DNA of 64,000 nt from Balneola sp. (GTDB taxonomy: Bacteria > Bacteroidota > Rhodothermia > Balneolales > Balneolaceae). A program made the position numbers and the translations under genes. This document shows, piece by piece, positions 1,583 to 30,682 of this stretch. Location of the stretch: contig NZMW01000017.1 of the NCBI GenBank assembly GCA_002694685.1, positions 62,001 through 126,000 on the forward strand, written 5' to 3'. Under the pieces are notes generated by a model, which saw only the letters and a program-made list of their open reading frames with translations, had not been told where the DNA came from and searched no databases. Every line of letters begins with the position of its first letter. The first letter of the stretch is position 1.

Positions 1583-1842
1583 TCGTTAGTTTTATATCGA
1601 AAAGTTACCGGGATTCTATCATCAAACGGAGAGCCGATGTGATAGAGTTCCCATTCCGAATCGTAATTCATAATTCGTTCTCTGAGAATGGTGATGAGAT
1701 CTTCGGAGCTGCCATTTTCGGAATGCCACTCAAAAGTCTCTACACGAAACTTCATATTTCGCTTTTCACCGTTTACGTGTACATCCAGATTGACAACGCT
1801 TTCTACATTTGGGACCGTAAATTGAACTCGTACATTATGCAT
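1579..1842 (-). CDS. Small cytoplasmic protein of unknown function, first gene of the serine hydrolase operon
   Basis: The protein has 87 residues, with no signal peptide or membrane segment and an alternating beta-like pattern (VRVQFTVPNVESVVNLDVHV). I do not recognise the family. It is judged real because its stop codon overlaps the start of the serine hydrolase gene by 4 nt and because a promoter-like -24/-12 element lies about 50 nt upstream with paired palindromes behind it. Confidence 0.6.
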   Translation of the reverse strand: MHNVRVQFTVPNVESVVNLDVHVNGEKRNMKFRVETFEWHSENGSSEDLITILRERIMNYDSEWELYHIGSPFDDRIPVTFRYKTNE

Positions 1843-1891: not shown

Positions 1892-1907
1892 CTCAAGAAT
1901 AGTGCCA
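1892..1907 (-). promoter_or_regulatory. Candidate sigma-54 (-24/-12) promoter of the 87-aa/serine hydrolase operon
   Basis: Read on the minus strand the site is TGGCACT-ATTC-TTGAG, against the sigma-54 consensus TGGCACG-N4-TTGCW. The -24 half is almost perfect and the spacing is exact; the -12 GC is GA, as in two of the three other sites of this set. The gene start lies 50 nt downstream. The 69-nt offset to the paired upstream sites equals that at 13080, 15778 and 27201. Confidence 0.65.
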
Positions 1908-9799: not shown

Positions 9800-10495
9800 T
9801 TATGCTATTTCCTTGGTTTCTTCATAGGGATCATCTTTCAAAAGCACCCCATCTTTAAGGTTGATTATTCGATTGCCGTAGGAAGCCATTTTTTCCGAAT
9901 GGGTTACCTGTATGATGGTCACCCCTTCATCATTAAGCTTCTTAAACATCTCCATGATTTGCTCGCTTTGTTCGGAATGGAGGTTTCCGGTGGGTTCATC
10001 GGCAAGAAGAAGCTTGGGGCTTCCGATGATAGCTCGGGCAACACCAACCACCTGTTGCTGACCACCTGATAGCTGGGGAGGGAATAAGTCTTTTTTAGCC
10101 ACGATATTAAATCGATCCAAAATATCCGCGACCATGGCTTTGCGCTGTTTTCCTTTTACTTTTCTGTAGAGAAGGGGCATCTCAATATTTTCATAAACGG
10201 TGAGCTCATCGATCAGATGGTAGGCTTGAAATACGAAACCAATGTGGGATTTATGATAATCTGATTTTTTCCTTTCACTAAGGTTATGAACCGGCTCTCC
10301 GAGGAATTGGTATTCACCTTCTGAGGCATCATCAAGAAATCCGAGAATATTCAGCAGCGTTGATTTACCCGCACCACTTGGTCCCATAATAGTAACAAAG
10401 TCGCCTTCAACAATATCCAGATTAATGTCTTTTAGGATAAAAGTGCGCTGAAACCGCTTATCGATATACTTGTCGATGTTTCTTAGTTGGATCAT
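9800..10495 (-). CDS. MacB/LolD-type ABC transporter ATPase with an altered D-loop
   Basis: The 231-residue nucleotide-binding subunit has Walker A GPSGAGKST (38-46), a Q-loop (FVFQAYHLIDELT), signature LSGGQ (142-146), Walker B LLLADEPTG and an H-loop VTHS. Two positions depart from the family: the signature continues QQQVVGVARA instead of the usual [10 protein letters not shown], and the D-loop reads GNLHSE instead of GNLDS (His173 for Asp). The paralogue at 25081 keeps the standard residues. The gene lies downstream of the 821-residue permease on the same strand and probably works with these permeases, or is a divergent partner. Confidence 0.9.
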   Translation of the reverse strand: MIQLRNIDKYIDKRFQRTFILKDINLDIVEGDFVTIMGPSGAGKSTLLNILGFLDDASEGEYQFLGEPVHNLSERKKSDYHKSHIGFVFQAYHLIDELTVYENIEMPLLYRKVKGKQRKAMVADILDRFNIVAKKDLFPPQLSGGQQQVVGVARAIIGSPKLLLADEPTGNLHSEQSEQIMEMFKKLNDEGVTIIQVTHSEKMASYGNRIINLKDGVLLKDDPYEETKEIA

Positions 10496-10578: not shown

Positions 10579-13044
10579 TTATTCACTTCTTAAACTTTCA
10601 GTTGGATTAATTAATGTAGCTTTGATGGACTGATAACTCACTGTGAGCCAGGCCACGGCAAGCGTTACCATCCCAGCCAAAAGAAAAATGCCGATGCCGA
10701 GTTCAATGCGGTAAGCAAAATCCTGAAGCCAGGTTTTCATTCCATACCAGGCAACGGGAGCTGCAATTACGAAAGCAATAGCGACCAGTTTTGTGAATTC
10801 TTTATTGACCAATAGTACGATATTACCTGAAGAGGCTCCAAGTACCTTTCGAACTCCGATCTCTTTGGTTTTCCGGATGACCATCAGCGATGCTAAGCCA
10901 AATAATCCAAGGCAGGCAATGATAATTGCGATGATGGAACCCGTAGCTACAATTCTACTCAACCTTTGCTCTTGTCGATATTGCGCATCCAAAGCCTGAT
11001 CTACAAAGGTATAATTAAAGGGAGTTCCAGGGGCAACAGTAGCAAATACTTCCCGGATATTCCCTACAGTCTGTTGGATATCAGATGTTGTGAGGTTTAC
11101 AGAAATTCTGGGATCAAATGAATTGCTAATACCCAGATTCTGGATTCCTGAAAAAAGAGTTTCAAATGACATAGACATAGCTAGCGGATCTACTGAGGTA
11201 TGCAGAGATTCATAATGGAAGTTTTCAACCACGCCAATTACTTCATGATCAACAAACTCCGGTCCGGGTAAGCTCTCGCCTAAAGGGTTTTCCCAACCGA
11301 AATAATCAACCATCGCCTGATTTACAATGATAGCCCGGCGCTGATCGCTGGTGTTTTCTTCTGAGAAATTTCTTCCTTCTAAAACTTGAATACCAAGTGA
11401 TGGAATAAAGTCCGCATCAACCACATTACCGTGGAAGTTACGGACTTGTTGTTCGTTATCTGTAAAGCCAAGCTGAAACCAACCACCGGTTTGAACCGGA
11501 GTGAAAGAAGAAACTGTAATGGAGCTTATTTCGGGTGAAGCCCCAAGCTGATTTTCAAGCAATTGCTTAATACGAGCAGCATTTTCAAATACATCATCAG
11601 GATCGTTTTGTGGAGTATTAGTGATACCTGTATCAAATACCAAAACCTGATCCTTTTGAAAGCCGAGATTTTTGTTTTGAACATAGTTTAACTGCTGTTG
11701 AATGGTGATGGTGCCAATGATCAGGGAAATAGAAAGAGCAAACTGCAATACCACCATAAACTGTTGGAAGCGCCCTTTTCCAGATGACATCCTAATTCGT
11801 CCCTTAAGTACTTCAATCGGCCGGAACCCGGATAAAACCAATGCCGGATATATGCCTGCAAATAAACTCACAATGATAGCAGTTACAGTAAGGCTACCTA
11901 TCATACCGAGAGAGTAACTGAGGTTCAGCTCTGTTCCTGATAATTCATTAAAGAGAGGAAGTAAAAACTCAGCAAAGGTAAGACCAAAAACAAAAGCAAT
12001 GACCGTCATCAAGAGAGCTTCACCCCAAAATTGATACATCAAATGTTGACGAATCGCACCGATAGTTTTTCGTATTCCTACTTCTTTAGCTCTGGATGTA
12101 GAACGGCTGATGGAAAGTGTCATAAAATTGACACAGGCAATGAGCAAAATGAGGAAGGCGATTACACTGAGTATATAAGAGTAAACAGGATCGCTTACAG
12201 AGGCGAGTCCGCCGGCAAGTTCCGTGTTAAGGTGAATATCTGTCAAAGGCTGAAGGTTAATTGTGTATTGGGTTTCTTCATACACATCGGGGCCTAAAGT
12301 GCTTTCCATCATAGCAGCAAACTTCTCGTCCAGTGTTGAGGGATCCACACCTTCGCTTAAAGTGAGATAAGTACTTCCATAAATATTAAACCAACTCTGC
12401 CGGCCCTGCTCAGAAATGAGGTTCTTAAGGTTTTCGTAGGGCATCAGAATATTGTAGGGAAGGCTCGAATTAGTTGGAGTGTCTTCAATGACGCCACTTA
12501 TTGAAAATTCCTGATATTCATCTCCGATTCGAATGGATAACCCCTGTTGAACCGGATTCTGATTTCCAAAAAGTCGCTTTGCTACAGACTCAGACAACAC
12601 TACCGATGAGGGGTTGTTGAAAATAGTTGATTTATCTCCCTGCAATAGCTCAAAATCAAACATCTGAAAGAAATCATCATTAACAACCAAGACTCCTTCA
12701 CTTTGCGCTTCCGGTTTTTGAACAGTTTTGACCAGGTTATTGAAGTTAAATAGGTAGGTGATGTGTTCAACCTCTGGGATGTTATCCTGAATTGTTGGAC
12801 TTAGGATCACCGGCGTTGCCGTGTTAGCAAGTACTCGTTGATCGGGGGTAGTCTCTTCGTACCATACACGGTACGTACGATCCGCCTTAGAATGAAATGA
12901 GTCGTAGCTCCATTCATTATGTACATATAATGCTATGAGGATACAGCAAGCAATTCCAGCTGCCAGTCCAAAAATATTGATAGACGAATAAACCTTGTTT
13001 TTAAAAAGGTTCCGAAAGGCGATTTTGAAGTAGTTTTTCAGCAT
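10579..13044 (-). CDS. MacB/FtsX-type ABC transporter permease (821 aa)
   Basis: The protein begins with a short basic cytoplasmic segment, then TM1 (IFGLAAGIACCILIALYVH), a large periplasmic MacB_PCD domain, three TMs ending before residue 420, a second periplasmic domain and a final three-TM FtsX block. This duplicated arrangement (about 800 residues) is common in Bacteroidota and differs from the 4-TM E. coli MacB; the ATPase is a separate protein. Family members act as mechanotransmission pumps for lipoproteins, peptides or macrolides; the substrate here is unknown. It is preceded by a sigma-54-like promoter with paired sites and followed by an ATPase gene. Confidence 0.9.
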   Translation of the reverse strand: MLKNYFKIAFRNLFKNKVYSSINIFGLAAGIACCILIALYVHNEWSYDSFHSKADRTYRVWYEETTPDQRVLANTATPVILSPTIQDNIPEVEHITYLFNFNNLVKTVQKPEAQSEGVLVVNDDFFQMFDFELLQGDKSTIFNNPSSVVLSESVAKRLFGNQNPVQQGLSIRIGDEYQEFSISGVIEDTPTNSSLPYNILMPYENLKNLISEQGRQSWFNIYGSTYLTLSEGVDPSTLDEKFAAMMESTLGPDVYEETQYTINLQPLTDIHLNTELAGGLASVSDPVYSYILSVIAFLILLIACVNFMTLSISRSTSRAKEVGIRKTIGAIRQHLMYQFWGEALLMTVIAFVFGLTFAEFLLPLFNELSGTELNLSYSLGMIGSLTVTAIIVSLFAGIYPALVLSGFRPIEVLKGRIRMSSGKGRFQQFMVVLQFALSISLIIGTITIQQQLNYVQNKNLGFQKDQVLVFDTGITNTPQNDPDDVFENAARIKQLLENQLGASPEISSITVSSFTPVQTGGWFQLGFTDNEQQVRNFHGNVVDADFIPSLGIQVLEGRNFSEENTSDQRRAIIVNQAMVDYFGWENPLGESLPGPEFVDHEVIGVVENFHYESLHTSVDPLAMSMSFETLFSGIQNLGISNSFDPRISVNLTTSDIQQTVGNIREVFATVAPGTPFNYTFVDQALDAQYRQEQRLSRIVATGSIIAIIIACLGLFGLASLMVIRKTKEIGVRKVLGASSGNIVLLVNKEFTKLVAIAFVIAAPVAWYGMKTWLQDFAYRIELGIGIFLLAGMVTLAVAWLTVSYQSIKATLINPTESLRSE

Positions 13045-13079: not shown

Positions 13080-13095
13080 TTCAACTATCATACCA
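13080..13095 (-). promoter_or_regulatory. Candidate sigma-54 promoter of the 821-aa permease
   Basis: The minus strand reads TGGTATG-ATAG-TTGAA, with exact -24/-12 spacing. The flanking bases are nearly the same as at 15778 (CTATTCAACTATC and CTATCCAACTATC on the plus strand). The gene starts 36 nt downstream. Confidence 0.65.
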
Positions 13096-13148: not shown

Positions 13149-13185
13149 TGTTCGCTATTAAACAGCAGGTGTACATTATCGAACA
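13149..13185. promoter_or_regulatory. Paired enhancer-like sites upstream of the 821-aa permease
   Basis: Two 16-mers, TGTTCGCTATTAAACA (13149-13164) and TGTACATTATCGAACA (13170-13185), are separated by GCAGG, giving a 21-bp centre-to-centre distance (two helical turns). The first lies 69 nt from the promoter element, as in the other three promoters. Confidence 0.65.
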
Positions 13186-13305: not shown

Positions 13306-15723
13306 TTATTCACTCCGAAGTGTTTTAACGGGGTTTGCTGTGGCTGATTTAATGGCCTGAACTCCAATGGTAAACCAAGAAACAATCAGTACTGCTAATG
13401 AGCAAAGAACAAAAACCCATAATGAGACGGTGGTTTGTTCACTGAAGTTGTTTAGCCAGCGGTTCATAAAAACATAGACTAGTGGGAGAGCAAGAACCTG
13501 AGCTAAAATCACAAGCAAGGTAAAGTCTTTTCCAAGTAGCATCACGATATCGGAGACCGTTGCCCCCATCACTTTTCTGATGCCAATTTCTTTAACCCGC
13601 TGTTGAATACTATAGGAAGCCAATCCAAGTAGCCCAAGGCTTGCAATTAGGATAGCAATGAAGGCAAAAGCTTTAAATATATTACTAAGCTTTGCCTCAG
13701 AGCGGTACATACTGTCGAAGGTGGTGTCTAGAAAGAAATATTCAAACGGACGCTCTGGGTTAAAGGCACTCCACTTTTCCTCAATGCTGGCAGCAACATC
13801 TCTGATTTCATTTGAAGTAAGTTTGACTGATAAATAGTCGTGATAAAAAGTGCGTTTAAAAACATGAATAATGACAGGGTCTATTTTGTTGTGCAGAGAA
13901 TTGTACTGGAAGTCTTCTACCACACCAATCACTTTTCCTTTCTTGCGAACTAAGTCTGTAACATAAAAGCTAAGAGTAAGCTCTTTATCTAACGGATTGT
14001 CTGTCCATCCCAGGCGTTTAGCTGCTGTTTCGTTTATGATAAATGCTTCTTCCTCATCGGTGGAGAATTCTTCAGAGAAATCTCTTCCTGAAATCAGATT
14101 TAGTCCAAGTGTTTCCAGATAACCAAAATCAACGGTAAGGGTTTGCATCCCAACCGAGTCGCCGGGGTTATCTTCAGGAGTCACCATAAAACCGTGAATG
14201 CCAGATTTTATACCTGGTAAACCAGAGGCGGCGGAGGCGGATTGAACTCCCGGAATTCGTTCAATCTCTTCTTTAAGCGTAGAAATGTTAAACTGATTAG
14301 CCGTTTCACGGATGGGCATGATCAAAACTTGCTCCTTTTCAAATCCCAGCTTTTTATTTTGAATATAGTCTAGCTGTTGGGTTATGATAATGGTAGCGAA
14401 GATGAGTGCAGTAGAAACACAAAACTGAAATACAACCAGCCCTTTTCGGAAAGAAGTAATCGATGACTTTTCGGTTATACTTTTTCCTTTTAGTGTTTGA
14501 ATGGGCTTAAATGAAGACAAGTAAAAAGCAGGATAGCTTCCTGCTAAAATACCTATCCCAACTACAGCCAGAATAACGGGTACGATAATATTCCAATCAG
14601 CAAAATAAGACAGAGAAAGTTTGTAGCCGGTTAATTCATTGAAGTAAGGGAAAATAGCTTCAACAAAAATCAGAGCAAACCCAAAACCCAGTACAGTCAT
14701 GATAATAGCTTCGCCTAAAAATTGGCCTATAAGCTGACCCCGAACTGCCCCCATTGTTTTCCTCATTCCAACCTCAAGGCCTCTTTTCGCAGATCTGGCG
14801 GTAGCCAGGTTCATAAAATTGGTGCAAGCGATGATGAGTATGAAAAGTCCTATTCCGGAAAAGATGTAGATGTAGGTAATGTCAAAATTAGCAGATATTT
14901 CATTCTGAAGGTTTGAGTGGAGATGAATATCAGAGATAGGTTGAAGGCCAAAACTGCTGGCCTCAGCGTACTCATTCCCATAATATTTTTCCTCAAATGC
15001 AGGAAATTGAAATATAAGGCCCTGTACATCCTCAGGCTTGTTTAACTGAACATAGGTATACATTGGGGGATGATATTTCACGTTATATTCCCAAGGTCTG
15101 AGGCGGCTCAAACTTTCATATGAGATAACATAATCAAACTGAATATGAGAGTTGCTTGGTGGGTTTAACGCAACTCCTGTAATTTCAAAATCAAAAGTAT
15201 TTCTTGAGTCCTTAAGTCTTAAAGACTTTCCCATAGGATCTTCATCGCCAAAAAACTTTGTGGCTACTTGTTCTGTGATGACCAAAGTAAATGGTTTATC
15301 TAAAGCGGTAGCTGGGTTTCCTTTTTTTAAGGGAAAGGAAAACATTTCAAAGAATGAAGAGTCTGCCAAGACAATCCCATCTTCTTGGTAACTAGTGTTA
15401 TCAGGTCCGGTGATTAACCCTGAACTTGGATATAAATGTGTAACCCTTTTTATGGTTGGAAACTCCATTTCCAAAGCGGGAGCCAGTGCTGAATAGGTAG
15501 TTGCATAGGTATCGGTATTGCCATCAGCTTTATAGCTCTCGGTTACTCTGTATAACTCAGTATAATTTTCATGAAATTTGTCATAAGAAAGTTCATGCAT
15601 TACATATACAGTAATTAACATAACGCAGCCTAACCCAACAGATAAACCAAGAATATTAATAACAGAGTAAAGTCTATTTTTGAAAAGATTCCTGAGGGCA
15701 ATTTTAAAATAGTTCTTAAACAT
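13306..15723 (-). CDS. MacB/FtsX-type ABC transporter permease (805 aa)
   Basis: It has the same architecture as its neighbours: an N-terminal FKNYFKIALRNLFKN segment, TM1, a periplasmic MacB_PCD domain, an internal FtsX block with NLATARSAKRGLEVGMRKT before the next TM, a second periplasmic domain and a C-terminal FtsX block with VKEIGIRKVMGA. The ending NPVKTLRSE is shared by all four permeases. It has its own promoter-like element and enhancer pair, so it is probably transcribed separately. The substrate is unknown. Confidence 0.9.
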   Translation of the reverse strand: MFKNYFKIALRNLFKNRLYSVINILGLSVGLGCVMLITVYVMHELSYDKFHENYTELYRVTESYKADGNTDTYATTYSALAPALEMEFPTIKRVTHLYPSSGLITGPDNTSYQEDGIVLADSSFFEMFSFPLKKGNPATALDKPFTLVITEQVATKFFGDEDPMGKSLRLKDSRNTFDFEITGVALNPPSNSHIQFDYVISYESLSRLRPWEYNVKYHPPMYTYVQLNKPEDVQGLIFQFPAFEEKYYGNEYAEASSFGLQPISDIHLHSNLQNEISANFDITYIYIFSGIGLFILIIACTNFMNLATARSAKRGLEVGMRKTMGAVRGQLIGQFLGEAIIMTVLGFGFALIFVEAIFPYFNELTGYKLSLSYFADWNIIVPVILAVVGIGILAGSYPAFYLSSFKPIQTLKGKSITEKSSITSFRKGLVVFQFCVSTALIFATIIITQQLDYIQNKKLGFEKEQVLIMPIRETANQFNISTLKEEIERIPGVQSASAASGLPGIKSGIHGFMVTPEDNPGDSVGMQTLTVDFGYLETLGLNLISGRDFSEEFSTDEEEAFIINETAAKRLGWTDNPLDKELTLSFYVTDLVRKKGKVIGVVEDFQYNSLHNKIDPVIIHVFKRTFYHDYLSVKLTSNEIRDVAASIEEKWSAFNPERPFEYFFLDTTFDSMYRSEAKLSNIFKAFAFIAILIASLGLLGLASYSIQQRVKEIGIRKVMGATVSDIVMLLGKDFTLLVILAQVLALPLVYVFMNRWLNNFSEQTTVSLWVFVLCSLAVLIVSWFTIGVQAIKSATANPVKTLRSE

Positions 15724-15777: not shown

Positions 15778-15793
15778 TCCAACTATCGTACCA
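15778..15793 (-). promoter_or_regulatory. Candidate sigma-54 promoter of the 805-aa permease
   Basis: The minus strand reads TGGTACG-ATAG-TTGGA. Spacing is exact and the sequence is nearly identical to the site at 13080. The gene start is 55 nt downstream. Confidence 0.65.
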
Positions 15794-15846: not shown

Positions 15847-15883
15847 TGTTCGCTTTTAAACACCGGGTGTGCGCTTGTGGACA
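15847..15883. promoter_or_regulatory. Paired enhancer-like sites upstream of the 805-aa permease
   Basis: TGTTCGCTTTTAAACA (15847-15862) and TGTGCGCTTGTGGACA (15868-15883) are separated by CCGGG, with 21 bp between centres. The first site is 69 nt from the promoter element, as in the other members of the set. Confidence 0.65.
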
Positions 15884-15948: not shown

Positions 15949-18300
15949 TCACTCACTCTTCAAACTCTGAACCGGATTCATGAGTGCAGCTTTAATGGAC
16001 TGCCAGCTTACTGTTAGCCAGGCTATTACTACTGCAAGAAATCCGGAACCGGCAAAAATCCACCAGCTTAGCCCGGCGTTGTATGCAAAATCAGAGAGCC
16101 AGGTATCCATCATCCACCAAGAAACAGGAATAGCTATAAGGATGGCAATAAGAACCAGTTTGGTGAAATCTTTGGTAAGGTGAATAACCAAACTTTGAAC
16201 GGTTGCTCCCAATACCTTTCGAACCCCAATTTCTTTAGCTCGCTGTTCTGCAGTAAAGGCTGATAAGCCAAATAATCCAAGACAGGAAATGATGACAGCA
16301 AAAATGGAAAAGTATTTTGCTAAATCTCCTATGCGCTGTTCACTCCGGTATAATGCGGCGTATTGGTCATCCATGAACTCATAGGCAAATGGATAGGTGG
16401 GGTTGAATTCTTTGTATTTATCTTCGACTTGAGCCAGCGTTTCCCGGATATTATCCGATTCTATTCGAACATAGGCAGAGCCTCCAAATTCACTTAAGCG
16501 AAAGAATAAAGGTTCAATATCATTACGTAGATTTTCATAATTGAAGTCTCTTACCAAGCCAATGATTTCTGTTTCTTCACCCCAAAGGGTAATGAATTGG
16601 CCAACAGGGTTATCGAGTCCCATGACGTTAGCAGCTACTTCATTAATAAGGATTCGGGAAGTATCGGCTCCAAATTCTTCGGAGTGCGTGCGCCCTGAAA
16701 TTACCTCAAAGCCCATAGTCTCGACAAGGCCATAATCGGCTGATACATTTTCAAACAATATTTGTGTATCGGGCAGTTTGCCAGGCCAGTCTAATCCGGA
16801 TGTATTTGAATTCCGCCCAAGGAATGAAGAATTAGACCTGGAAGCATTTACAACACCTGGAATGGTTTTAATCTGTTCTTTAAAGGTGTCCCAGTTATTG
16901 CGAACATCGCCCTCAACTGTGAATGTAATCAGGTTTTCTTTTTTATAACCCAGGCTTTTATTCTGTGTGTATTGAATTTGTTGGTACACCACGATGGTAG
17001 AGATAATCAGGATGACCGAAAGGGTGAATTGAAATACAACCAATCCTTTTCGGGCAAATGCCTCACTCCCCGAAATTTTAAGATTTCCTTTGAGTGTTTT
17101 AACAGCCTCAAAAGAAGAAAGATAGAAAGCGGGATAACTTCCGGCTATAAACCCGGTAAAGAGAGCGGTTCCCAAGAAGATCAATAGAAGTGTTGGGTCT
17201 CCATATTGTACATCAATGGCTTTACTGGTGAGGTCATTAAATACCGGGAGGCTCAATTCAACAAAAAACACAGAAACAATCAGCGAGAAAAAAGTGATCA
17301 TCATAGACTCACCGAGAAATTGACCAATCAATGAACCCTGACTGGCACCGATTGACTTTCGGATTCCAACTTCTTTTGCCCGCTTAGTTGCTTTAGCCGT
17401 GCTTAAATTCATAAAGTTGATACAGGCAATTAACAAGATGAAAATAGCAACTACAGTAAATAGGCGAACATAATCGATGCGGCCACCGGTTTGTACTCGA
17501 TTCTCAAACTGACCATAGAGATATAAATCAGCAGAAGGATACACGAAAAGTTCGACATTGGAGTCATCTTCATCCTTCTGCTGTACAAAATCAGCAATCT
17601 TTCTGTTGAGGGCATCCACATCAACACCGGGGTAAAGCTTAGTGATGGTTCGGGGACCGTTATTTCCCCAGGAAGTTGCCCAATCATTATTGGCTAACCA
17701 GTCTTCAAAGGGGAGTACGTAATCAAATTGGAAGCTGGAATTTTCAGGCAGTTTTTCAAAAACACCAGTTACAGTATGGACAGCATTTGAATTCAGGGTA
17801 ATAGATTCACCTACGGCATTTTCGGTTCCAAAGTATTTTACCGCAATCTCTTTTGATACAACGACCGTTTTTGGACTATTGATAAGTTCATCCCGATTGC
17901 CATGAAGTAAGTTGATGTCAAGAATGTGGAAGATATCGGGCCGTGCATAAAACCCGGTTTCCTTTAAAGATTTACTCTCTTTTGTGAATAGATACTCCAC
18001 AGGCCAAGTGTAAGTTGAGGTGTACTGGAATTCAGGTACTTCCTCTTTAAGTGCGGGCGCAAGAATACCGGGTGTCGAAAGGGTAGTCATGACATCCGCA
18101 GAGTAGGACTGATGCTCCATAACCTGATATATCTGGTCAACATCAGCATGGAAGCGATCATACTCAAGTTCATCGAGTACCCAAAGCAGAATCAAGATAC
18201 TGCAAGCCATCCCAATGGAGAGCCCGATAACATTAATTAGAAAAGAACTTTTGTGACGTTTGAAACTCCGAAAAGCAGTTTTAAGATAATTTTTAAACAT
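15949..18300 (-). CDS. MacB/FtsX-type ABC transporter permease (783 aa)
   Basis: This is a third paralogue of the family, with TM1 in NVIGLSIGMACSILILLWVL, a MacB_PCD periplasmic domain, two FtsX blocks (AKEVGIRKSIGAS and AKEIGVRKVLGAT before membrane spans) and the ending NPVQSLKSE. Unlike the two downstream permeases I cannot find a -24/-12 site in its 144-nt upstream gap, only weak traces of the enhancer pair near 18384-18420. It may be transcribed with the fucosidase gene upstream. Confidence 0.9.
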   Translation of the reverse strand: MFKNYLKTAFRSFKRHKSSFLINVIGLSIGMACSILILLWVLDELEYDRFHADVDQIYQVMEHQSYSADVMTTLSTPGILAPALKEEVPEFQYTSTYTWPVEYLFTKESKSLKETGFYARPDIFHILDINLLHGNRDELINSPKTVVVSKEIAVKYFGTENAVGESITLNSNAVHTVTGVFEKLPENSSFQFDYVLPFEDWLANNDWATSWGNNGPRTITKLYPGVDVDALNRKIADFVQQKDEDDSNVELFVYPSADLYLYGQFENRVQTGGRIDYVRLFTVVAIFILLIACINFMNLSTAKATKRAKEVGIRKSIGASQGSLIGQFLGESMMITFFSLIVSVFFVELSLPVFNDLTSKAIDVQYGDPTLLLIFLGTALFTGFIAGSYPAFYLSSFEAVKTLKGNLKISGSEAFARKGLVVFQFTLSVILIISTIVVYQQIQYTQNKSLGYKKENLITFTVEGDVRNNWDTFKEQIKTIPGVVNASRSNSSFLGRNSNTSGLDWPGKLPDTQILFENVSADYGLVETMGFEVISGRTHSEEFGADTSRILINEVAANVMGLDNPVGQFITLWGEETEIIGLVRDFNYENLRNDIEPLFFRLSEFGGSAYVRIESDNIRETLAQVEDKYKEFNPTYPFAYEFMDDQYAALYRSEQRIGDLAKYFSIFAVIISCLGLFGLSAFTAEQRAKEIGVRKVLGATVQSLVIHLTKDFTKLVLIAILIAIPVSWWMMDTWLSDFAYNAGLSWWIFAGSGFLAVVIAWLTVSWQSIKAALMNPVQSLKSE

Positions 18301-21685: not shown

Positions 21686-22610
21686 ACAGATCTTTAATAA
21701 AATCCGGAGTAAGGGGATCATCCTCAAAAAATGTCCGATCTACTCCACGACTGATAGCCCATCGATCAATCCAGGAAATACCCCACGGTCCGTAACGGGT
21801 TACCGGTGTTTGATAAGATTCGTCTTCTAAAACTTCTTCCTGAGAAATAAAGGAATATCCATAGCTCACATACATTTCTGCTAAGTCATCCAGATAGTGA
21901 GCATTCAGAAGGTTGGCATGAATCAGAAGGGTTTGTGGGATATTTCTGCCAAATAAAGTCTCTGACGATTTTTCGTAGAACTGAAGTTTTTCTTCCATGT
22001 ATTCCACATAAGTTTCTCCAACCTTTCCCATCAGTTCACGGTCATTTCGGCTATATGCAATGTGGTAGGCTTTGGCAAAAATGTAGTCTTCATTATCAAT
22101 GGTAACGGGAGCCGGAGTGTATCCATTTTGTTGAAGAAACCTGCGAAGGGAATCGGCATGTGATTGGGAAGTGCCAATTCGCAAGTAAGGATGCCGGAAA
22201 TATCGGTAAGGGAGGTCATGTTTTTGGGAAAGAGGTTTTGTGATTTTTTCTCCTCTCAGAACATTAGCGGAGAATCTATGAAAAGGTGTTTCATGATAAT
22301 TGGGATGACTAAAGGTATGATTACCCAATTCAAAACCATTGCTTAGCCAAAGTTCTAAAAGTTGAACCTTGTTAGAATCCAGTTTGCCATCATCATAAAG
22401 TTTACCCTCATTCACATAGCCAATGGCTGGGATACTATACTCCTCAAAAGTTTTGATGAGTTGAAGAGTAAGTTCCTTTTGGAACTCAGGATCTTGAATA
22501 CCATAATGAACAACTGGAAGGTCATCTACAGTGACGGCCATTTGTTGTTGAGCAAATGCAAAGGAACTAAAAAGAGTAAGAACTAAGGCTACAAAAAATA
22601 TTCTATTCAC
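21672..22610 (-). CDS. Exported polysaccharide deacetylase (CE4/NodB-type)
   Basis: The 312-residue protein has a signal peptide (MNRIFFVALVLTLFSSFAFA). NodB homology motifs are visible: AVTVDDLPV (catalytic/metal Asp pair), HTFSHPNYH (the metal-binding HxxxH) and YRYFRHPYL (RxP motif). It probably removes N-acetyl groups from an envelope or extracellular glycan. The start overlaps the stop of the 794-residue permease gene by 8 nt, so it belongs to the macA-like/ATPase/permease operon and may modify the same envelope region. Confidence 0.88.
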   Translation of the reverse strand: MNRIFFVALVLTLFSSFAFAQQQMAVTVDDLPVVHYGIQDPEFQKELTLQLIKTFEEYSIPAIGYVNEGKLYDDGKLDSNKVQLLELWLSNGFELGNHTFSHPNYHETPFHRFSANVLRGEKITKPLSQKHDLPYRYFRHPYLRIGTSQSHADSLRRFLQQNGYTPAPVTIDNEDYIFAKAYHIAYSRNDRELMGKVGETYVEYMEEKLQFYEKSSETLFGRNIPQTLLIHANLLNAHYLDDLAEMYVSYGYSFISQEEVLEDESYQTPVTRYGPWGISWIDRWAISRGVDRTFFEDDPLTPDFIKDLSNNR

Positions 22611-24987
22611 TTTTCAAACTATCTACAGGATTTGCTAAAGCAGCTTTTATGGATTGCCAGCTTACCGTGAGGATGGCGATGAATGCTGCAATTATTCCAA
22701 CAGACAGAAAAACCATAACGCCGATATCGATGCGGTAGGCAAAGTTGGTGAGCCATTGCTCCATGAGATACCAAGCTATGGGGGCTCCAACCAGAAATCC
22801 GATTCCCACTAACTTCAGGAAGTCAGATGACAGGAGGGCAACAATTCCTGCTACAGAAGCTCCTAATACTTTTCGTATTCCAATTTCTTTAGCCCGGCGC
22901 TCTATGAGGAAGGAGGAAAGTCCGATTAAACCCAGGCAGGCTATGAATATCGCCAATCCTGAAAAGACCATTGAAAGGTCACGGGTTCGTAATTCTGATT
23001 GATATAAGGCGTTCAGTTGCTGATCCATGAATTCGAACTCAAATGGTCGGTGGGGAGCAATATTGTCCCAGGTATTTTCCAGTGACGCTATTGTTCCTCT
23101 GATGTTTTCCGGAGCAACTTTAATCAGCAGGTAATTATACATTTGTTCATGCATGAATAGTGCGAGAGGTTCCACTTCTTCTCTTAAAGACTGGTAATTG
23201 AAGTCTTTCATAACTCCTACCACTTCTCCTTCACGGTTACCTACTACGTTAAAAAATTGACCGATGGCTTCTTCCGGTTCCCAGCCGTGTGCACTTGCGA
23301 GTTTCTCATTAATCAAATACCGGTAGCCTTGCTCACGGGTGTAAGTAGGATTTTTGGGAAAGCCAGTGCCAGCAATTAGCTCGATGCCTAAAGTCTCCGT
23401 TAAGTCGGCGTCGGCCGCTCCAGCAGCTGTGCCTATAGCTTCCATGGTGGAATTGTGTACAGAACCATATCCCCCAAAAACTTTACCGGGGACGTTAGAC
23501 ATATAGGTGGCATTAACGACTCCCGGCTGTCGAAGTATCTCTTCTTTCAGTAAGTCTTGTTTGTCAGCAAGCTGATTATCCCGTGCTGGTAGTACAATCA
23601 CTTCTTCCTTGTCGAAACCCAGATCTGAAGTAAGTATGAAATTTGTTTGTTGAAATATGATGACGGTACAGAGAATGAGAAAGGTTGAGATCCCAAATTG
23701 AGAGATAACCAATCCTTTTCTGAGAATCCCTCCGGAAGCTTTTTCACCAAGAATTCCCTTCAGTACTTTTACAGGTTGATAGGAGGAAAGCAGAAAAGCC
23801 GGATAACTTCCAGCCAATGCTGCGGTAAAAAGTGTGATCACAGCCAATAAAATCAGAATAGAAGGATCCGTAAAAAGATTAAAGCTAACATCCTGCCCAA
23901 GTAGCTCGAAGAAAGGAGCTTTGAAAAACTCAACCAACAGTAGTGCAATACCTACAGAAATCATGGTTAGCAAGATTGACTCACCATAAAACTGCCGGAC
24001 GAGCTGTCCTTTTACCGCACCCAAAGCCTTCCGAATTCCCACTTCAGCTCCTCTTCTGGATGAACGTGCTGTAGCCAGATTTACGTAATTAATAATGGCA
24101 ATCAGCAAAACCATGATGGCAAGGAAAATGAAACCTATCACATTCTGCATGCTGCTCATGGGCTGAATCTCAAAATCAAAGTTTGAGTTGAGATAGAGAT
24201 CAGTGAGTGGAGTGAAATTCAGTCCCCTGATCCGTTCTTCGGGTAAGTTGTTAGCTATAAAAGTAGCCGTTGTATTCTCAATCAAAGGAATTGAGCTCTC
24301 ATTATTGAGAAGAAGGTAGGTATAGAAATTTGCGGCACGAATATTGGAATCATCAAGTTGAGACCACCTCTGAATCGTATTTAATGAGGCAAGATAATCG
24401 AAATCGAAGTGTGAGTTTGTAGGAACATCCTTGATAACTCCGGTTACCTCAAAGTCGATATCGGTATTGGAGATGCGGGCATTTACGGTCTCACCCATAG
24501 GATTTGCAGAACCAAATAGCTTTCTCGCTGTTGACTGTGGAAGAATCAAAGACCGAGGGTCGTCAAGTGCTGTTTCAGGGTTACCTGCGATAAATTCAAA
24601 ACTAAAGACCTTGAAGAAGCTGGAATCAGCATACATGAAATGGTCTTCCTGAAATTTATTTTGGCCACTAGTAATAATGGCTGGGCTGTAACGGGTAGGT
24701 TCATAAAGGCGAACCCATTCTTCTACTTCTGGCGATATCTGATTCAAGGTTGGAGCTACCATAGATGGGGTAACGGCAATGGGCCGTTGTTCCCCGGTAT
24801 CCATACTCACCCGAACGATCCTTTCAGATTTTTCGTGAAACTGATCGTAGCTAAGTTCATGCCGAACATACACCAGTATTAACAGGCAGCAAGCCATGCC
24901 AATGGCTAAACCAGAAATGTTTATCGCCGAATACCCTTTGTGTTTTTGGATATTCCGTAGTGCAATTCTAATATAATTCTTAAGCAT
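22603..24987 (-). CDS. MacB/FtsX-type ABC transporter permease (794 aa)
   Basis: This is the fourth permease paralogue: TM1 in NISGLAIGMACCLLILVYVR, a MacB_PCD periplasmic domain, two FtsX blocks (GAEVGIRKALGAV, AKEIGIRKVLGAS) and the ending NPVDSLKSE. It lies in one unit after the adaptor (25897) and ATPase (25081) genes and directly before the deacetylase gene. With that adaptor and ATPase it can form a complete MacAB-like efflux machine. The substrate is unknown. Confidence 0.92.
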   Translation of the reverse strand: MLKNYIRIALRNIQKHKGYSAINISGLAIGMACCLLILVYVRHELSYDQFHEKSERIVRVSMDTGEQRPIAVTPSMVAPTLNQISPEVEEWVRLYEPTRYSPAIITSGQNKFQEDHFMYADSSFFKVFSFEFIAGNPETALDDPRSLILPQSTARKLFGSANPMGETVNARISNTDIDFEVTGVIKDVPTNSHFDFDYLASLNTIQRWSQLDDSNIRAANFYTYLLLNNESSIPLIENTTATFIANNLPEERIRGLNFTPLTDLYLNSNFDFEIQPMSSMQNVIGFIFLAIMVLLIAIINYVNLATARSSRRGAEVGIRKALGAVKGQLVRQFYGESILLTMISVGIALLLVEFFKAPFFELLGQDVSFNLFTDPSILILLAVITLFTAALAGSYPAFLLSSYQPVKVLKGILGEKASGGILRKGLVISQFGISTFLILCTVIIFQQTNFILTSDLGFDKEEVIVLPARDNQLADKQDLLKEEILRQPGVVNATYMSNVPGKVFGGYGSVHNSTMEAIGTAAGAADADLTETLGIELIAGTGFPKNPTYTREQGYRYLINEKLASAHGWEPEEAIGQFFNVVGNREGEVVGVMKDFNYQSLREEVEPLALFMHEQMYNYLLIKVAPENIRGTIASLENTWDNIAPHRPFEFEFMDQQLNALYQSELRTRDLSMVFSGLAIFIACLGLIGLSSFLIERRAKEIGIRKVLGASVAGIVALLSSDFLKLVGIGFLVGAPIAWYLMEQWLTNFAYRIDIGVMVFLSVGIIAAFIAILTVSWQSIKAALANPVDSLKSE

Positions 24988-25080: not shown

Positions 25081-25770
25081 TCACACATGAAAGCCTTCCT
25101 GCATATTCTCGGTTACCACATGGCCATCAAATAGGTGAATGACACGACGTGCGTAATCAGCATCATGCGGAGAGTGAGTTACCATTACAATGGTGGTTCC
25201 GGCTTCATTGAGTTCAGCTAACAGCTTCATCACTTCGTCTCCATGATCAGAATCCAGGTTACCAGTCGGCTCATCAGCAAGGATTAGTTTGGCGTTTGCT
25301 ACTACGGCTCGGGCAATAGCTACACGCTGCTGCTGTCCACCAGATAGTTGCTGAGGAAAGTGATTGCGGCGGTGCATCATACTCATTCGTTCGAGTGCGG
25401 CTTCTACTTTTGTTTTACGCTCTGCTGAATCAACACCGAGATAGAGTAATGGTAATTCTACATTCTCGAATACCGTGAGTTCGTCAATCAGGTTAAAACT
25501 CTGAAAAATGAAGCCGATGTTCCCTTTGCGAAGCTGAGCACGTTCCCGTTCTGAGTGGGTTGATATTTCATGGTTTAGAAAGTGGTATTCACCATCAGAC
25601 GGATTGTCGAGCAGTCCCATAATGTTTAGAAGCGTCGATTTTCCACAACCGGAAGGTCCCATAATAGCGACAAATTCCCCTTCTTTAATTTCAAGGTTCA
25701 CGTTGCTTAACGCAGTCGTTTCCACATCTTCCGTGGTATATACTTTTTTAAGGTTTTTTGTTTGAATCAT
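25081..25770 (-). CDS. MacB/LolD-type ABC transporter ATPase
   Basis: The 229-residue protein has canonical motifs: Walker [11 protein letters not shown]-loop [13 protein letters not shown], signature [14 protein letters not shown], Walker [11 protein letters not shown]-loop GNLDS and H-loop VTHS. It lies between the adaptor and the 794-residue permease in the same direction, so it energises that pump and perhaps the three other permeases, which have only one further ATPase (the divergent one at 9800). Confidence 0.93.
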
Positions 25771-27200: not shown

Positions 27201-27216
27201 TTCAATATACGTGCCA
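27201..27216 (-). promoter_or_regulatory. Candidate sigma-54 promoter of the adaptor-ATPase-permease operon
   Basis: The minus strand reads TGGCACG-TATA-TTGAA. The -24 block is a perfect consensus and the spacing exact; the -12 GC is GA. The adaptor start lies 48 nt downstream. This is the best of the four sites in the set. Confidence 0.7.
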
Positions 27217-27269
27217 AACTAAGCCAACTGATCTAATAAGTGAATTAGAGGTGATTCTTTCAAGATTAA

Positions 27270-27306
27270 TGTTCACATTCCAACATTGAATGTTCGATAT
27301 CGAACA
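27270..27306. promoter_or_regulatory. Paired enhancer-like sites, including a perfect 16-bp palindrome
   Basis: TGTTCACATTCCAACA (27270-27285) and the perfect palindrome TGTTCGATATCGAACA (27291-27306) are 21 bp apart. The first is 69 nt from the promoter element. The perfect copy defines the consensus of the set: TGTTCG-N4-CGAACA. The response regulator gene begins 528 nt away on the other strand. Confidence 0.7.
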
Positions 27307-27383
27307 CTTATTTCATAAGTTTCACACATTAGACTACTTCAAAAGAACAATGTTACAAACGGTATGATATTGGCATAGCGTAT

Positions 27384-27818
27384 AGCGCAAAGTGTTTTGC
27401 GCTTAGCGTTTTTTAGGCGACTAAAATTATGGTATAGAATGGCAAAATTTAGATTTCAAGACTTAGAGATATGGCAGATGGCTATTGATATAGCAGAGGA
27501 GTTGTTTGAAATAGCTGATGAACTTGAGCAAATGAAGCTATTTAGGTTTGCAGATCAACTAAGAGGCTCCGGGCTGAGTATGTCGAATAATATTGCAGAA
27601 GGTTCTGGTTCTGGCTTTCCTAAAGTATTTAAGCGTTACCTCGATCATGCCCGAAGTTCGACATTTGAAAATGCGAATGTAATCGTGGTTTTATATAGAA
27701 GGGGTATAATCTCAACCGAGAAACACGAAAATTTGCTTGATAAACTCGACCACCTAAGTCGAAAAATCACCAATTTTAAGAAAACTTTATAAGAGCTAAG
27801 CGCAAAACGCTCTGCGCT
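27384..27818. mobile_element. Small element: four-helix-bundle gene within terminal inverted repeats (copy 1)
   Basis: A 24-nt sequence at 27384-27407 (starting AGCGCAAAGTGTTTTGCGCT) recurs inverted at 27795-27818 with two mismatches, and each arm is itself a small hairpin. The only gene inside is the four-helix-bundle ORF. The element lies between the adaptor operon's control region and the response regulator gene. No target-site duplication is obvious. Confidence 0.55.
27439..27792 (+). CDS. Four-helix-bundle protein, S23/IVS-Avd-like family (copy 1)
   Basis: The 117-residue protein starts with MAKFRFQDLEIWQMAIDIAE; the conserved F..L.+W..A..+ opening and NNIAEGSG are hallmarks of the family once called 23S rRNA intervening-sequence (S23) proteins, related in fold to the Avd protein of diversity-generating retroelements. 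I start at 27439, because the upstream ATG at 27397 lies in the inverted repeat. The function is unknown; nucleic-acid binding is plausible from its relatives. Paralogues are at 39016 and 44333. Confidence 0.85.
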   Translation: MAKFRFQDLEIWQMAIDIAEELFEIADELEQMKLFRFADQLRGSGLSMSNNIAEGSGSGFPKVFKRYLDHARSSTFENANVIVVLYRRGIISTEKHENLLDKLDHLSRKITNFKKTL

Positions 27819-27833
27819 TAGCGAGAATAGATT

Positions 27834-29207
27834 ATGAAAAAAACCGGTCGAATTTTAGTTGTTGATGATGACACGGATGTATTGAATGCAGCCCGACTGT
27901 ATTTGAAGCAGCATGTGGAAAAAGTAGATGTGGAGAGTAATCCCAAGCTCATTCCAACACTGATGAAGGAGTACGATTACGACGCTATTCTTCTGGACAT
28001 GAACTTCCACGAAGATGTAAGCAGTGGAGAAGAAGGCTTTCACTGGCTTGAGAAGATTTTGGAGATGGATCCCGCTATGGCTGTGGTGTTGATTACTGCA
28101 TATGGCGATGTGGAGAAAGCAGTTCAGGCCGTTAAAACCGGAGCATCTGATTTTGTACTGAAACCATGGCAGAACGAAAAATTATTGACTACCGTCACCT
28201 CAGCTATGAACCTCAGTCAGTCCAAGAGAGACTCGCAAAAACTCCGAACTGAAAACGCCGCGCTAAAGGCTGATATGGAGCAGCCCTATCAAAATATTAT
28301 CGGGAAAAGCCGGGCGATGGAACAGGTTTTTCAAACCATTGAGAAGGTAGCCAAGACGGATGCCAACGTTCTGATTACGGGTGAAAACGGAACCGGAAAA
28401 GAATTGGTAGCCCGGGCACTGCACCGTCGCTCCAACCGAAGTGAAAATGCATTCATCACAGTTGATATGGGAGCCTTACCGGAGACCTTATTTGAGAGCG
28501 AGCTCTTTGGTCACGAGAAAGGAGCCTTTACCGATGCCAAGGAATCCCGGGCAGGAAGATTCGAAATTGCTAACGGAGGGACTCTATTTCTGGATGAAAT
28601 TGGGAATCTGCCGGTACAGCTTCAGCCCAAATTACTGTCTGCATTGCAAACACACGAAATTCGAAGAATAGGCTCCAACAAAACCACCAAAATTGATATC
28701 CGTCTGATTTGTGCAACGAATGTTGCTTTAGGTGAAATGGTAGAGAAACAAGAGTTCCGGCAAGATTTGTTGTACCGGATTAATACCATCGAAATCAAAC
28801 TTCCACCACTCCGGGAAAGAGCGGAAGATATTCCACTGCTGGCCGAACACTTCCTCAAACAATATCGAACCAAATATAAAAAGGGGATAACCGGAATTAT
28901 GGATCAGGCTATAGATCACCTTAAAGAATATCACTGGCCGGGTAACATCCGGGAGCTGGAGCATGCGGTTGAACGCGCCGTTATTATGACGGATGAGAAG
29001 CAACTTCAAAAAGGCGATTTCTTGCTAACTTCAGTTTCAGGAAAAGACCATCAGTTGCCGGTTTCCGGTTTAAATCTGGAAGAAGTGGAAAAGACGGTTA
29101 TTCGAAAAGCGATGGAGAAACATAGCGGAAATATCTCTCACGCAGCGGATGAGCTGGGTTTAACTCGGGCATCGCTCTACCGGCGTTTGGAAAAATATGG
29201 GTTGTAG
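27834..29207 (+). CDS. NtrC-family sigma-54-dependent response regulator
   Basis: The 457 residues comprise a receiver domain (phospho-acceptor Asp55 in ILLDMNF, Lys110 in VLKPW), an AAA+ sigma-54 interaction domain (Walker A ITGENGTGKE near 181-190, Walker B LFLDE) and a C-terminal Fis-type helix-turn-helix (HAADELGLTRASLYRRLEKYG). The sigma-54 contact loop reads GAFTDA (230-235) where GAFTGA is usual; this variant occurs in other family members. With the kinase gene downstream it forms a two-component system. It is the likely activator of the four -24/-12 promoters in this window. Confidence 0.93.
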   Translation: MKKTGRILVVDDDTDVLNAARLYLKQHVEKVDVESNPKLIPTLMKEYDYDAILLDMNFHEDVSSGEEGFHWLEKILEMDPAMAVVLITAYGDVEKAVQAVKTGASDFVLKPWQNEKLLTTVTSAMNLSQSKRDSQKLRTENAALKADMEQPYQNIIGKSRAMEQVFQTIEKVAKTDANVLITGENGTGKELVARALHRRSNRSENAFITVDMGALPETLFESELFGHEKGAFTDAKESRAGRFEIANGGTLFLDEIGNLPVQLQPKLLSALQTHEIRRIGSNKTTKIDIRLICATNVALGEMVEKQEFRQDLLYRINTIEIKLPPLRERAEDIPLLAEHFLKQYRTKYKKGITGIMDQAIDHLKEYHWPGNIRELEHAVERAVIMTDEKQLQKGDFLLTSVSGKDHQLPVSGLNLEEVEKTVIRKAMEKHSGNISHAADELGLTRASLYRRLEKYGL

Positions 29208-29216
29208 ACTCTTAAC

Positions 29217-29306
29217 TTGTCATCTCGCAGCGAATGCCCGAGATCTGGATGGTGAAAAAATAACAGCATGAATTATAGAATTAGATTCCTGCCTGCGCAG
29301 GAATGA
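29217..29306. repeat. REP-like repeat pair upstream of the histidine kinase gene
   Basis: Two modules are present: 29217-29244 (starting TTGTCATCTCGC) and 29282-29306, a palindrome with core CCTGCGCAGG. Both recur in inverted orientation after the kinase gene (30769-30793 is an exact 25-nt complement of 29282-29306; 30835-30862 matches the first module with a few changes). The second module ends in the ATG at 29303. Confidence 0.7.
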
Positions 29307-30682
29307 CTTTAGAAAAAATGATCAAAAGCTTTAGACTTGGAATTATAATCCGCATTCTTATGCTGGCTGCGTCACTGTTGTTGGTGATGTATCTTGTGCT
29401 TGAGACGGAGTACTACGTCAGCATGGCTATTTTAAGCCTGGTTATTGTCGGGCAGATTATCGCTTTGATTACTTATCTGGAACGGACCAATATCTTACTC
29501 ACCCGCTTTTTAGAAGCCATTCGCTATTCCGATTTCACCGGCGCTTTTCGGAATCATGGGCTGGGAAGTAATTTTGATCAGCTTAATGCTGCTTTCAGTG
29601 ATGTGATCGATAAGTTTAAAGATGAGCGAAGCAAGAAAGAGGAAAGCATTCGGTATCTGGAAACGGTTGTGCAGCATATTGGAATCGGCTTGGTTTGTTT
29701 TAATGGTCAGGGTGAAGTTGTGCTGTTGAATACCGCGGCTAAGCGTTTGTTTAAAGTAGCAACACTCAGAACACTTGATTCCCTGAAGTCTATTTCAGAA
29801 ACACTTTATAAAACAGTAAAAAAGCAGAAGGGTGGGAACAGAAGTCTGATTCGGGTATCCATTCAAAATGAAACCCTGCAGCTTGCGATGTATGCTACGG
29901 AGTTCAGGATGAGAGATGAAGCTTTTAAGCTGGTTTCTTTTCAGAATATCCATACAGAACTTGAAGAAAAAGAGATGGAAGCCTGGCAAAACTTAACCCA
30001 GGTTCTTGCCCATGAAATCATGAATTCAATCACGCCGATTTCATCACTTTCCAGTACGGTAAAAATGCTGCTTGAAGAGAATTCGGTGACTAAAGAAAAT
30101 CATGTAGAGCTAAATACTGAAACGGTCGAAGATGTAACCGATGCGTTGACCACTATCAGTAAGAGAAGTCAGGGATTGATGCGATTTGTGAATTCCTATC
30201 GCGATTTCACCCAAATTCCTGAACCGAGTTACGAACTATTTAAGGTGAAGGAGGCTCTTGATCGTACTGCTAGTCTGATGAGAACCGAAGCGGCTAAAGA
30301 TGGAATTGAGATTATGGTCGAAGTTGATCCTGAAAGCCTGGAGCTTACCGCTGATCCTCATTTGGTGGAGCAAATACTTATTAACATCGTAAAAAATGCA
30401 ATTCGGATATTATCGGATCAGGAAAATGGAAAAATCTGGATGCGAAGTGGAATTGAGGAATCAGGGAAAGTAAGTATTCAAATTCAGGATAATGGTCCCG
30501 GCGTGAAGAAGGCGATGAAGGAGAAGATATTTATTCCGTTTTATACGGTGGGGAGTAATGGAAAGACCAAGGGTTCTGGTATTGGACTGAGCCTTTCCCG
30601 ACAAATTATGCGCCTGCATGGCGGGAGTTTAATTTTAACTACAGAATCCGGCAAAGGGTCTACGTTTACGATGAGGTTTTAA
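29303..30682 (+). CDS. Membrane sensor histidine kinase partner of the NtrC-type regulator
   Basis: The 459-residue kinase has two N-terminal membrane spans (about 12-33 and 36-57), a short HAMP-like linker, a PAS-like segment (about 115-215), an H-box VLAHEIMNSITPI, an N-box ILINIVKNAIRI, and G-boxes DNGPGV and GSGIGLSLSRQIM. The spans are connected by only a few residues, so sensing is probably intramembrane or cytoplasmic, as in NtrY-like kinases responding to envelope state. The first ATG (29303) lies in a repeat; ATG at 29318 (MIKSFRLGIII) is the more natural start. Confidence 0.92.
   Translation: MTLEKMIKSFRLGIIIRILMLAASLLLVMYLVLETEYYVSMAILSLVIVGQIIALITYLERTNILLTRFLEAIRYSDFTGAFRNHGLGSNFDQLNAAFSDVIDKFKDERSKKEESIRYLETVVQHIGIGLVCFNGQGEVVLLNTAAKRLFKVATLRTLDSLKSISETLYKTVKKQKGGNRSLIRVSIQNETLQLAMYATEFRMRDEAFKLVSFQNIHTELEEKEMEAWQNLTQVLAHEIMNSITPISSLSSTVKMLLEENSVTKENHVELNTETVEDVTDALTTISKRSQGLMRFVNSYRDFTQIPEPSYELFKVKEALDRTASLMRTEAAKDGIEIMVEVDPESLELTADPHLVEQILINIVKNAIRILSDQENGKIWMRSGIEESGKVSIQIQDNGPGVKKAMKEKIFIPFYTVGSNGKTKGSGIGLSLSRQIMRLHGGSLILTTESGKGSTFTMRF

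Follow-up and report, generated by a model that had tools for sequence, protein, structure and literature searches.

A predicted sigma-54-dependent regulon of MacB/FtsX-type permeases with closely spaced, paired activator sites in a Gracilimonas-like member of the Balneolaceae

Results

The regulator, its kinase and the candidate target genes

The stretch of DNA analysed here (the window; 64,000 nucleotides of contig NZMW01000017.1) comes from a marine source organism that is a Gracilimonas-like member of the Balneolaceae. It encodes an NtrC-family response regulator and a sensor histidine kinase on the plus strand, and a set of exporter, permease and hydrolase genes on the minus strand, as follows.

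27834-29207, plus strand: response regulator of the NtrC family (457 aa) with a GAFTDA loop and a Fis-type HTH; predicted to activate the five promoters
29303-30682, plus strand: sensor histidine kinase of 459 aa with two membrane helices and a very short outside loop
25897-27153, minus strand: periplasmic adaptor, HlyD/MacA-like; best NCBIfam match DarC, below cut-off
25081-25770, minus strand: exporter ABC ATPase of the adaptor operon
22603-24987, minus strand: duplicated MacB/FtsX permease (ADOP-like) of the adaptor operon
13306-15723, minus strand: duplicated MacB/FtsX permease (ADOP-like)
10579-13044, minus strand: duplicated MacB/FtsX permease (ADOP-like)
9800-10495, minus strand: ABC ATPase, probably co-transcribed with permease 10579 (judged by position only)
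1579-1842, minus strand: conserved 87-aa protein, first gene behind promoter 1892
560-1582, minus strand: secreted protein with a beta-lactamase fold (serine hydrolase); its gene overlaps the 87-aa ORF

The regulator matched PF00072 (receiver), PF00158 (sigma-54-activating AAA+) and PF02954 (Fis-type HTH), all above cut-off, and its closest named match was 90% identical. It is one of four true sigma-54 activators in its genome, where sigma-54 (rpoN) is encoded once (one match to PF04552, E=5.3e-56). The loop with which the regulator contacts sigma-54 has the sequence GAFTDA, as in all Balneolaceae orthologues checked and in the Pseudoalteromonas loci described below, and the loops of the other three activators read GAFTGA, GAFTGA and GSFTGA. 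GAFTDA has been listed among the GAFTGA loop variants expected to stay active (PMC4641369), and it was counted here as a variant of that loop. In the kinase, hydropathy alone placed two helices at about residues 7-25 and 31-49, separated by a loop of a few residues, and the same arrangement was found in the orthologues.

The domains of the target genes bore out the original prediction that the operons encode an envelope exporter, two further permeases and a secreted hydrolase; to these we add the 87-aa ORF and the regulator itself. The permeases scored 276-330 bits against TIGR03434 (ADOP), over most of their length and below its cut-off of 622, and are for that reason named ADOP-like only. 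Scores against the DarC profile (228 versus a cut-off of 450) and the DarB profile (up to 189 versus 700) were likewise low. The 87-aa protein is 67-92% identical in relatives; it had no Pfam family above cut-off, and its structure prediction was weak (mean pLDDT 67).

Four predicted minus-strand promoters, and a fifth that shares a pair of sites

The predicted sigma-54 promoters and activator sites are given below. The R1 E-values refer to a profile from which this genome was held out (see below), and site distances are minus-strand distances that take the first T of each -24 element as the reference point (27216, 15793, 13095 and 1907).

27201-27216, minus strand: sigma-54 promoter of the adaptor operon, TGGCACGTATATTGAA, TGGCACG-TATA-TTGAA; R1 E=1.4e-19
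27291-27306, unstranded: predicted activator site 1, perfect palindrome TGTTCGATATCGAACA; at -90 of the minus promoter and -69 of the plus promoter
27270-27285, unstranded: predicted activator site 2, TGTTGGAATGTGAACA (minus strand); at -69 of the minus promoter and -90 of the plus promoter
27360-27374, plus strand: fifth promoter, toward the regulator and kinase, CGGTATGATATTGGC, GG-N10-GC; R1 E=7.3e-7
15778-15793, minus strand: sigma-54 promoter of permease 13306-15723, TGGTACGATAGTTGGA; R1 E=3.4e-17
15868-15883, unstranded: predicted activator site 1, TGTCCACAAGCGCACA
15847-15862, unstranded: predicted activator site 2, TGTTTAAAAGCGAACA
13080-13095, minus strand: sigma-54 promoter of permease 10579-13044, TGGTATGATAGTTGAA; R1 E=7.7e-16
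13170-13185, unstranded: predicted activator site 1, TGTTCGATAATGTACA
13149-13164, unstranded: predicted activator site 2, TGTTTAATAGCGAACA
1892-1907, minus strand: sigma-54 promoter ahead of the 87-aa ORF and the secreted hydrolase, TGGCACTATTCTTGAG; R1 E=1.7e-7
1983-1998, unstranded: predicted activator site 1, TGTTCGTAAATGCACA
1961-1977, unstranded: predicted activator site 2, TGTATCACTTTCGGACA, 17 bp

All four minus-strand promoters combine a TGGYAYG-N4-TTGR-like element with two TGTnCG-type (TGT-N10-ACA) palindromes about 21 nt apart. The original prediction had reported four loci with a -24/-12-like element and a pair of sites, and rereading them on the minus strand agreed with it to the base. 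The distance of exactly 69 nt that it gave from the first site to the promoter element is true in plus-strand coordinates, in which the near edge of the pair lies 69 nt from the element at 4 of 4 loci. It gave a spacing of 21 nt between site starts (22 in one). On the minus strand, the sites start at -90 and -69 at three loci and at -91 and -70 at the 1907 locus, where the second site is 17 bp long. The adaptor-operon promoter (27201-27216) was conserved in 24 Balneolaceae orthologues, and the promoter at 1892-1907 was conserved in relatives ahead of the same two genes, the 87-aa ORF and the hydrolase.

The fifth promoter, at 27360, had been overlooked. It uses the same two palindromes (27270-27306), at -69 and -90, and the pair lies exactly midway between the divergent -24 elements at 27216 and 27360; thus, a single enhancer sits between divergent promoters. 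Autoactivation of the regulator through promoter 27360 is predicted from this arrangement. A GGTAYGRTATT-like element was found at the corresponding position in 13 of the 13 orthologous loci listed. For the plus-strand element, most close relatives have a distance of -69/-70, and the others have -75 to -80. Between promoter 27360 and the regulator gene there is also a small ORF of the 23S-rRNA-IVP type (four-helix; 27397-27792), within a segment (27377-27830) bordered by similar GCGCAAA..GCGCTTAGCG repeats. Because the gap is far shorter in most orthologous loci, this region looks like an insertion.

The -12 element

The consensus of sigma-54 promoters has GC at -12, the C not being strictly invariant. 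Among 42 main promoters of the regulon, the base after TTG was A in 31, G in 10, T in 1 and C in none. This absence of the consensus C from all 42, together with the degenerate and often GG-N9-spaced -12 elements of the wider Bacteroidota, could mean that TGGYAYG-N4-TTGR is not a sigma-54 promoter at all but the site of another protein or a sigma-70-type promoter, the regulator acting in some other way. We consider this highly unlikely, given that the -24 GG and the TTG, with its G at -13, are invariant at a 10-nt spacing in 37 of 37 aligned promoters as well as in the four window promoters, that the associated regulator has a sigma-54-activating domain, that rpoN is present, and that the Gracilimonas plus-strand promoter retains GG-N10-GC. 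The elements are thus read here as predicted sigma-54 promoters with an unusual -12 region.

One candidate explanation for TTGR, namely that the GAFTDA loop dictates it, was weakened by loci L183 and L185, which have GAFTDA/GSFTDA loops, fall in the same class and carry TTGC. TTGR is a feature of these promoters and no strict consequence of the loop. The same idea was also weakened by the many Bacteroidota loci that have a weak or degenerate -12 element or one at N9 spacing; at eight outside the Balneolota (L214-L217, L225, L233, L235 and L242), the promoter next to a regulator of this family has TGGCA and TTG one base closer (GG-N9-G) than in the usual sigma-54 spacing. Elsewhere in the source genome, the only two perfect TTGGYAYG-N4-TTGCW sites precede groESL and an Hsp20 gene (G000:C4:538676, locus L155, and C16:81344, locus L156). 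This suggests that these heat-shock genes may be under sigma-54 control, and, given these TTGC sites, it is probable that sigma-54 in this cell recognizes the standard form as well.

Genome-wide distribution of the composite

When the genome was scanned for the lone palindrome TGTTCG-N4-CGAACA with up to 2 mismatches, 106 places were found, compared with 188 for the backward pattern. With fewer matches than its control, the single-palindrome scan was uninformative and was discarded as evidence. The fixed-spacing composite of 104 nt behaved differently: it gave 3 exact matches in the 3.95-Mb genome, all within the window, and one more at 2 mismatches, which was the fifth promoter. At 3 mismatches it added noise only, and the backward control gave 2 matches. 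The composite of pair, spacing and promoter is not a product of chance. The original prediction had called chance agreement at four loci very unlikely, and the near confinement of the composite to the window promoters agrees, with the caveat that the four are not fully independent because the promoters at 13080 and 15778 are similar and probably arose by duplication.

We next consider the comparison set of 58 genomes (the source genome and its relatives), of which 14 carry the regulator and 44 lack it. A graded scan that covered the window together with related loci gave 64 composite matches, versus 0 in the same DNA read backwards. Downstream of them lay the adaptor, the regulator, several paralogous duplicated MacB/FtsX permeases, and the 87-aa ORF followed by the beta-lactamase-fold secreted protein. 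A profile, R1, was then built from 37 promoters of other genomes, with the source genome held out, and run over all 58. In the source genome it found only the five promoters and two partial back-readings of the same palindromes (E of about 0.001 and 0.005). This profile scan, similar in aim to the whole-genome matrix scan that had been proposed as a check, returned sites ahead of exporter and permease genes, the regulator, and the 87-aa ORF with the hydrolase, and the spaced pair with its promoter did not turn up at random positions of that genome. The regulon is local within this genome.

Every one of the 14 regulator-carrying genomes had a best R1 E-value of 4.4e-14 or lower, and all 44 genomes that lack the regulator had a best value of 6.6e-5 or higher; because 13 of the 14 supplied training promoters and owe their top scores partly to construction, weight is placed on the source genome, the 44 negatives and the additional non-training matches. 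Nearly all of the latter lay ahead of permease or ATPase genes or of the 87-aa ORF with its hydrolase; one, in genome G031 (C3:25895), preceded an unrelated ORF. Moreover, 11 of 11 further Balneolaceae orthologues outside the training set had the pair at 67-70 nt. In other Balneolaceae (loci L144, L146 and L148), this regulon promoter precedes the 87-aa ORF even though the ORF lies at a distance from the regulator.

Within the source genome, four further ADOP-like permeases had no regulon promoter when they and the profile matches were searched for it (window 15949-18300; G000:C17:59259-61703; C10:226259-228658; C10:538917-540455), so that the regulator would control some of the permeases and not the whole set.

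Assignment of the regulator

The regulator at 27834 had been proposed as the activator, and strong profile matches occurred in exactly the 14 of 58 genomes that have it. The palindromes might nonetheless be bound by another protein, either another activator or an unrelated regulator, with the regulator a mere neighbour: the genome encodes three other activators, and binding of the sites by the regulator is a prediction. Sigma-54 activators are, however, present in 58 of 58 genomes (one to nine per genome), yet the composite sites are confined to genomes with this regulator, so that the presence of some activator does not account for the pattern. In addition, no such site pair was found in the neighbourhoods of the other three activators of the source genome, and among the Pseudoalteromonas cluster genes compared the regulator is the only shared DNA-binding protein. 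Binding by some other protein is therefore highly improbable. Variation among paralogues points the same way: three with the recognition helix SRQTLYNK are associated with A/T-rich half-sites without CG, and one with an LDRLALYRR helix is associated with sites that have ACAAACA ends. A change of site with the recognition helix is expected if the regulator reads these sites, albeit the numbers are small. Assignment of the regulator as the predicted activator is strongly supported by these comparative genomic data.

Distance classes in Pseudoalteromonas and the wider Bacteroidota

At four Pseudoalteromonas loci, a 54% identical regulator has an adaptor-ATPase-permease operon and a kinase as neighbours. 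Between the regulator and adaptor genes lie TGT[AT]CGATATCGTACA and TGTTTAATTTTTTTACA, with a spacing of 21 nt, and after them TTGGCATG-N4-TTGAG. With the second site at -80, the distance exceeds that in the Balneolaceae by eleven nt, or one helical turn.

A close relative of the regulator (E<=1e-130) was present in 85 of 394 sampled Bacteroidota genomes. Under a strict pattern, the tandem pair was found at 69 of 95 Bacteroidota regulator loci and was missing from 26 of 95. In a count restricted to positions 86-104, the distance from the first site to the TGG[CT]A element was 88-92 or 100-103 nt and never a value in between. In a wider count (positions 40-219), 49 of 59 Balneolaceae elements were at 88-93; at other loci 29 were at 88-93, 2 at 94-98, 12 at 99-104 and 15 elsewhere. 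These counts come from related loci and are not independent events. Nevertheless, a DNA loop that is short and stiff would be expected to show just such a pair of distance classes, separated by one helical turn. The fixed distance of the original prediction accordingly stood as a constant within the source genome and was relaxed among relatives, to 67-70 nt and a second class one turn further. In distant Bacteroidota (loci L205, L216, L221 and L237), TGGCA elements flank one shared site pair on both sides, and autoactivation from a central enhancer may thus be general in the regulator family.

Identical spacing at four loci could also reflect recent duplication of promoter and permease together, with no functional constraint. 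The promoters of permeases 13306 and 10579 are indeed alike, and the permeases are paralogues. Against this, the spacers between sites and promoter in the aligned promoters keep their length and not their sequence; the same distance is found ahead of non-homologous genes (adaptor, regulator and 87-aa ORF); and the distance is held in other Bacteroidota, with the second class a helical turn away. Duplication as the whole explanation is very unlikely, and a functional constraint on the distance is the reading that we retain.

Discussion

In this study, comparison of genome sequences led us to propose a two-component, sigma-54-dependent regulon with positive feedback, in which the regulator at 27834 very probably acts at five promoters through paired sites. 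By analogy with the NtrC family, the kinase at 29303 would phosphorylate the regulator, whose dimers would occupy a neighbouring pair of TGTnCG-type palindromes separated by two helical turns. The bound dimers would then assemble a hexamer, bridge a short DNA segment whose helical phase is fixed and, again as in that family, activate sigma-54 RNA polymerase at the TGGYAYG-N4-TTGR promoters. The targets would be the adaptor-ATPase-permease operon, the two further duplicated permeases, and the 87-aa protein with the secreted hydrolase; from the shared enhancer, in the opposite direction, the regulator itself would be activated.

The role of the system can be proposed only tentatively. The likeliest role for the exporter would be in a response to envelope or antimicrobial-compound stress, with self-amplification. 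The two helices of the kinase, joined by a few residues, recall kinases that sense through the membrane or a partner transporter. Given that this kinase has almost no outside domain, we tentatively propose that it reads the membrane or the transporter and not a periplasmic ligand.

A broader reading, possible but doubtful at present, is that short, helically phased sigma-54 enhancers of this kind extend across the phylum. A GAFTDA activator, bound as two dimers 21-22 nt apart, would work only with its sites on one helix face, at a fixed short distance or exactly one turn more, and would act on promoters with an altered -12 element unlike the cell's other sigma-54 promoters; the kinase would sense its MacB-like transporters, making the system a sigma-54 counterpart of Bce modules. 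Duplicated MacB/FtsX permeases are an abundant group without assigned function, for which this work offers a predicted activator, motif and target set, in a phylum for which few descriptions of sigma-54 regulons exist. Dozens of enhancer-promoter pairs from nature, in two distance classes one helical turn apart, also provide material for testing the rigidity of short sigma-54 enhancers.

In the textbook view, sigma-54 enhancers tolerate almost any distance, and the geometry predicted here is stricter than that. NtrC at glnA and nifLA resembles our system in its receiver-AAA+-Fis HTH activator, paired palindromic upstream sites and -24/-12 promoter. The glnA enhancers work from about 70 bp to more than 1000 bp and tolerate large changes of distance, whereas two-site NtrC activation at nifLA depends on the face of the helix (PMC7408454). 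Unlike at glnA, the distance here is short and nearly fixed (67-70 nt to -24, or one turn more) across many genomes. Further differences from NtrC/glnA and nifLA are the exporter targets, the enhancer common to divergent promoters, the GAFTDA loop and the TTGR -12 element.

According to the accessible text of a computational, genome-wide study by Carrera-Reyna et al. 2025 (PMC12316311), sigma-54 promoters are enriched ahead of COG0577 FtsX/MacB-type permeases in gamma-Proteobacteria, Opitutia and Bacteroidia, a link termed there a previously unrecognized regulatory axis. That text names no activator or upstream sites for the permease genes and does not mention the Balneolota. The original prediction that no regulon of such a layout had been described therefore needs to be divided: it stands for the activator, motif and geometry, for which our literature search found no paper, and does not stand for the link between sigma-54 and permeases, which the accessible text of that 2025 study already reports. 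The Desulfovibrio vulgaris sigma-54 regulome is alike in having local regulons, each an activator with neighbouring operons, and differs in its activators and targets, MacB and FtsX being absent from the text (PMC4641369). Overall, the regulon and its strict geometry appear undescribed, and the type of system is known.

The transporter resembles DarBC/MacAB and ADOP systems in its adaptor, ATPase and MacB/FtsX permease, with related profiles and scores below the curated cut-offs. A Bce-type module consists of an intramembrane-sensing kinase and an FtsX-superfamily ABC transporter, with an OmpR-type regulator. As in Bce modules, the kinase described here has two helices with hardly any outside loop, and by hydropathy only no extracellular domain, and it is genetically linked to an FtsX-superfamily transporter. 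Unlike in Bce modules, the regulator is NtrC-type and predicted to be sigma-54-dependent rather than OmpR-type, and the transporter is MacA/MacB-like, with a periplasmic adaptor.
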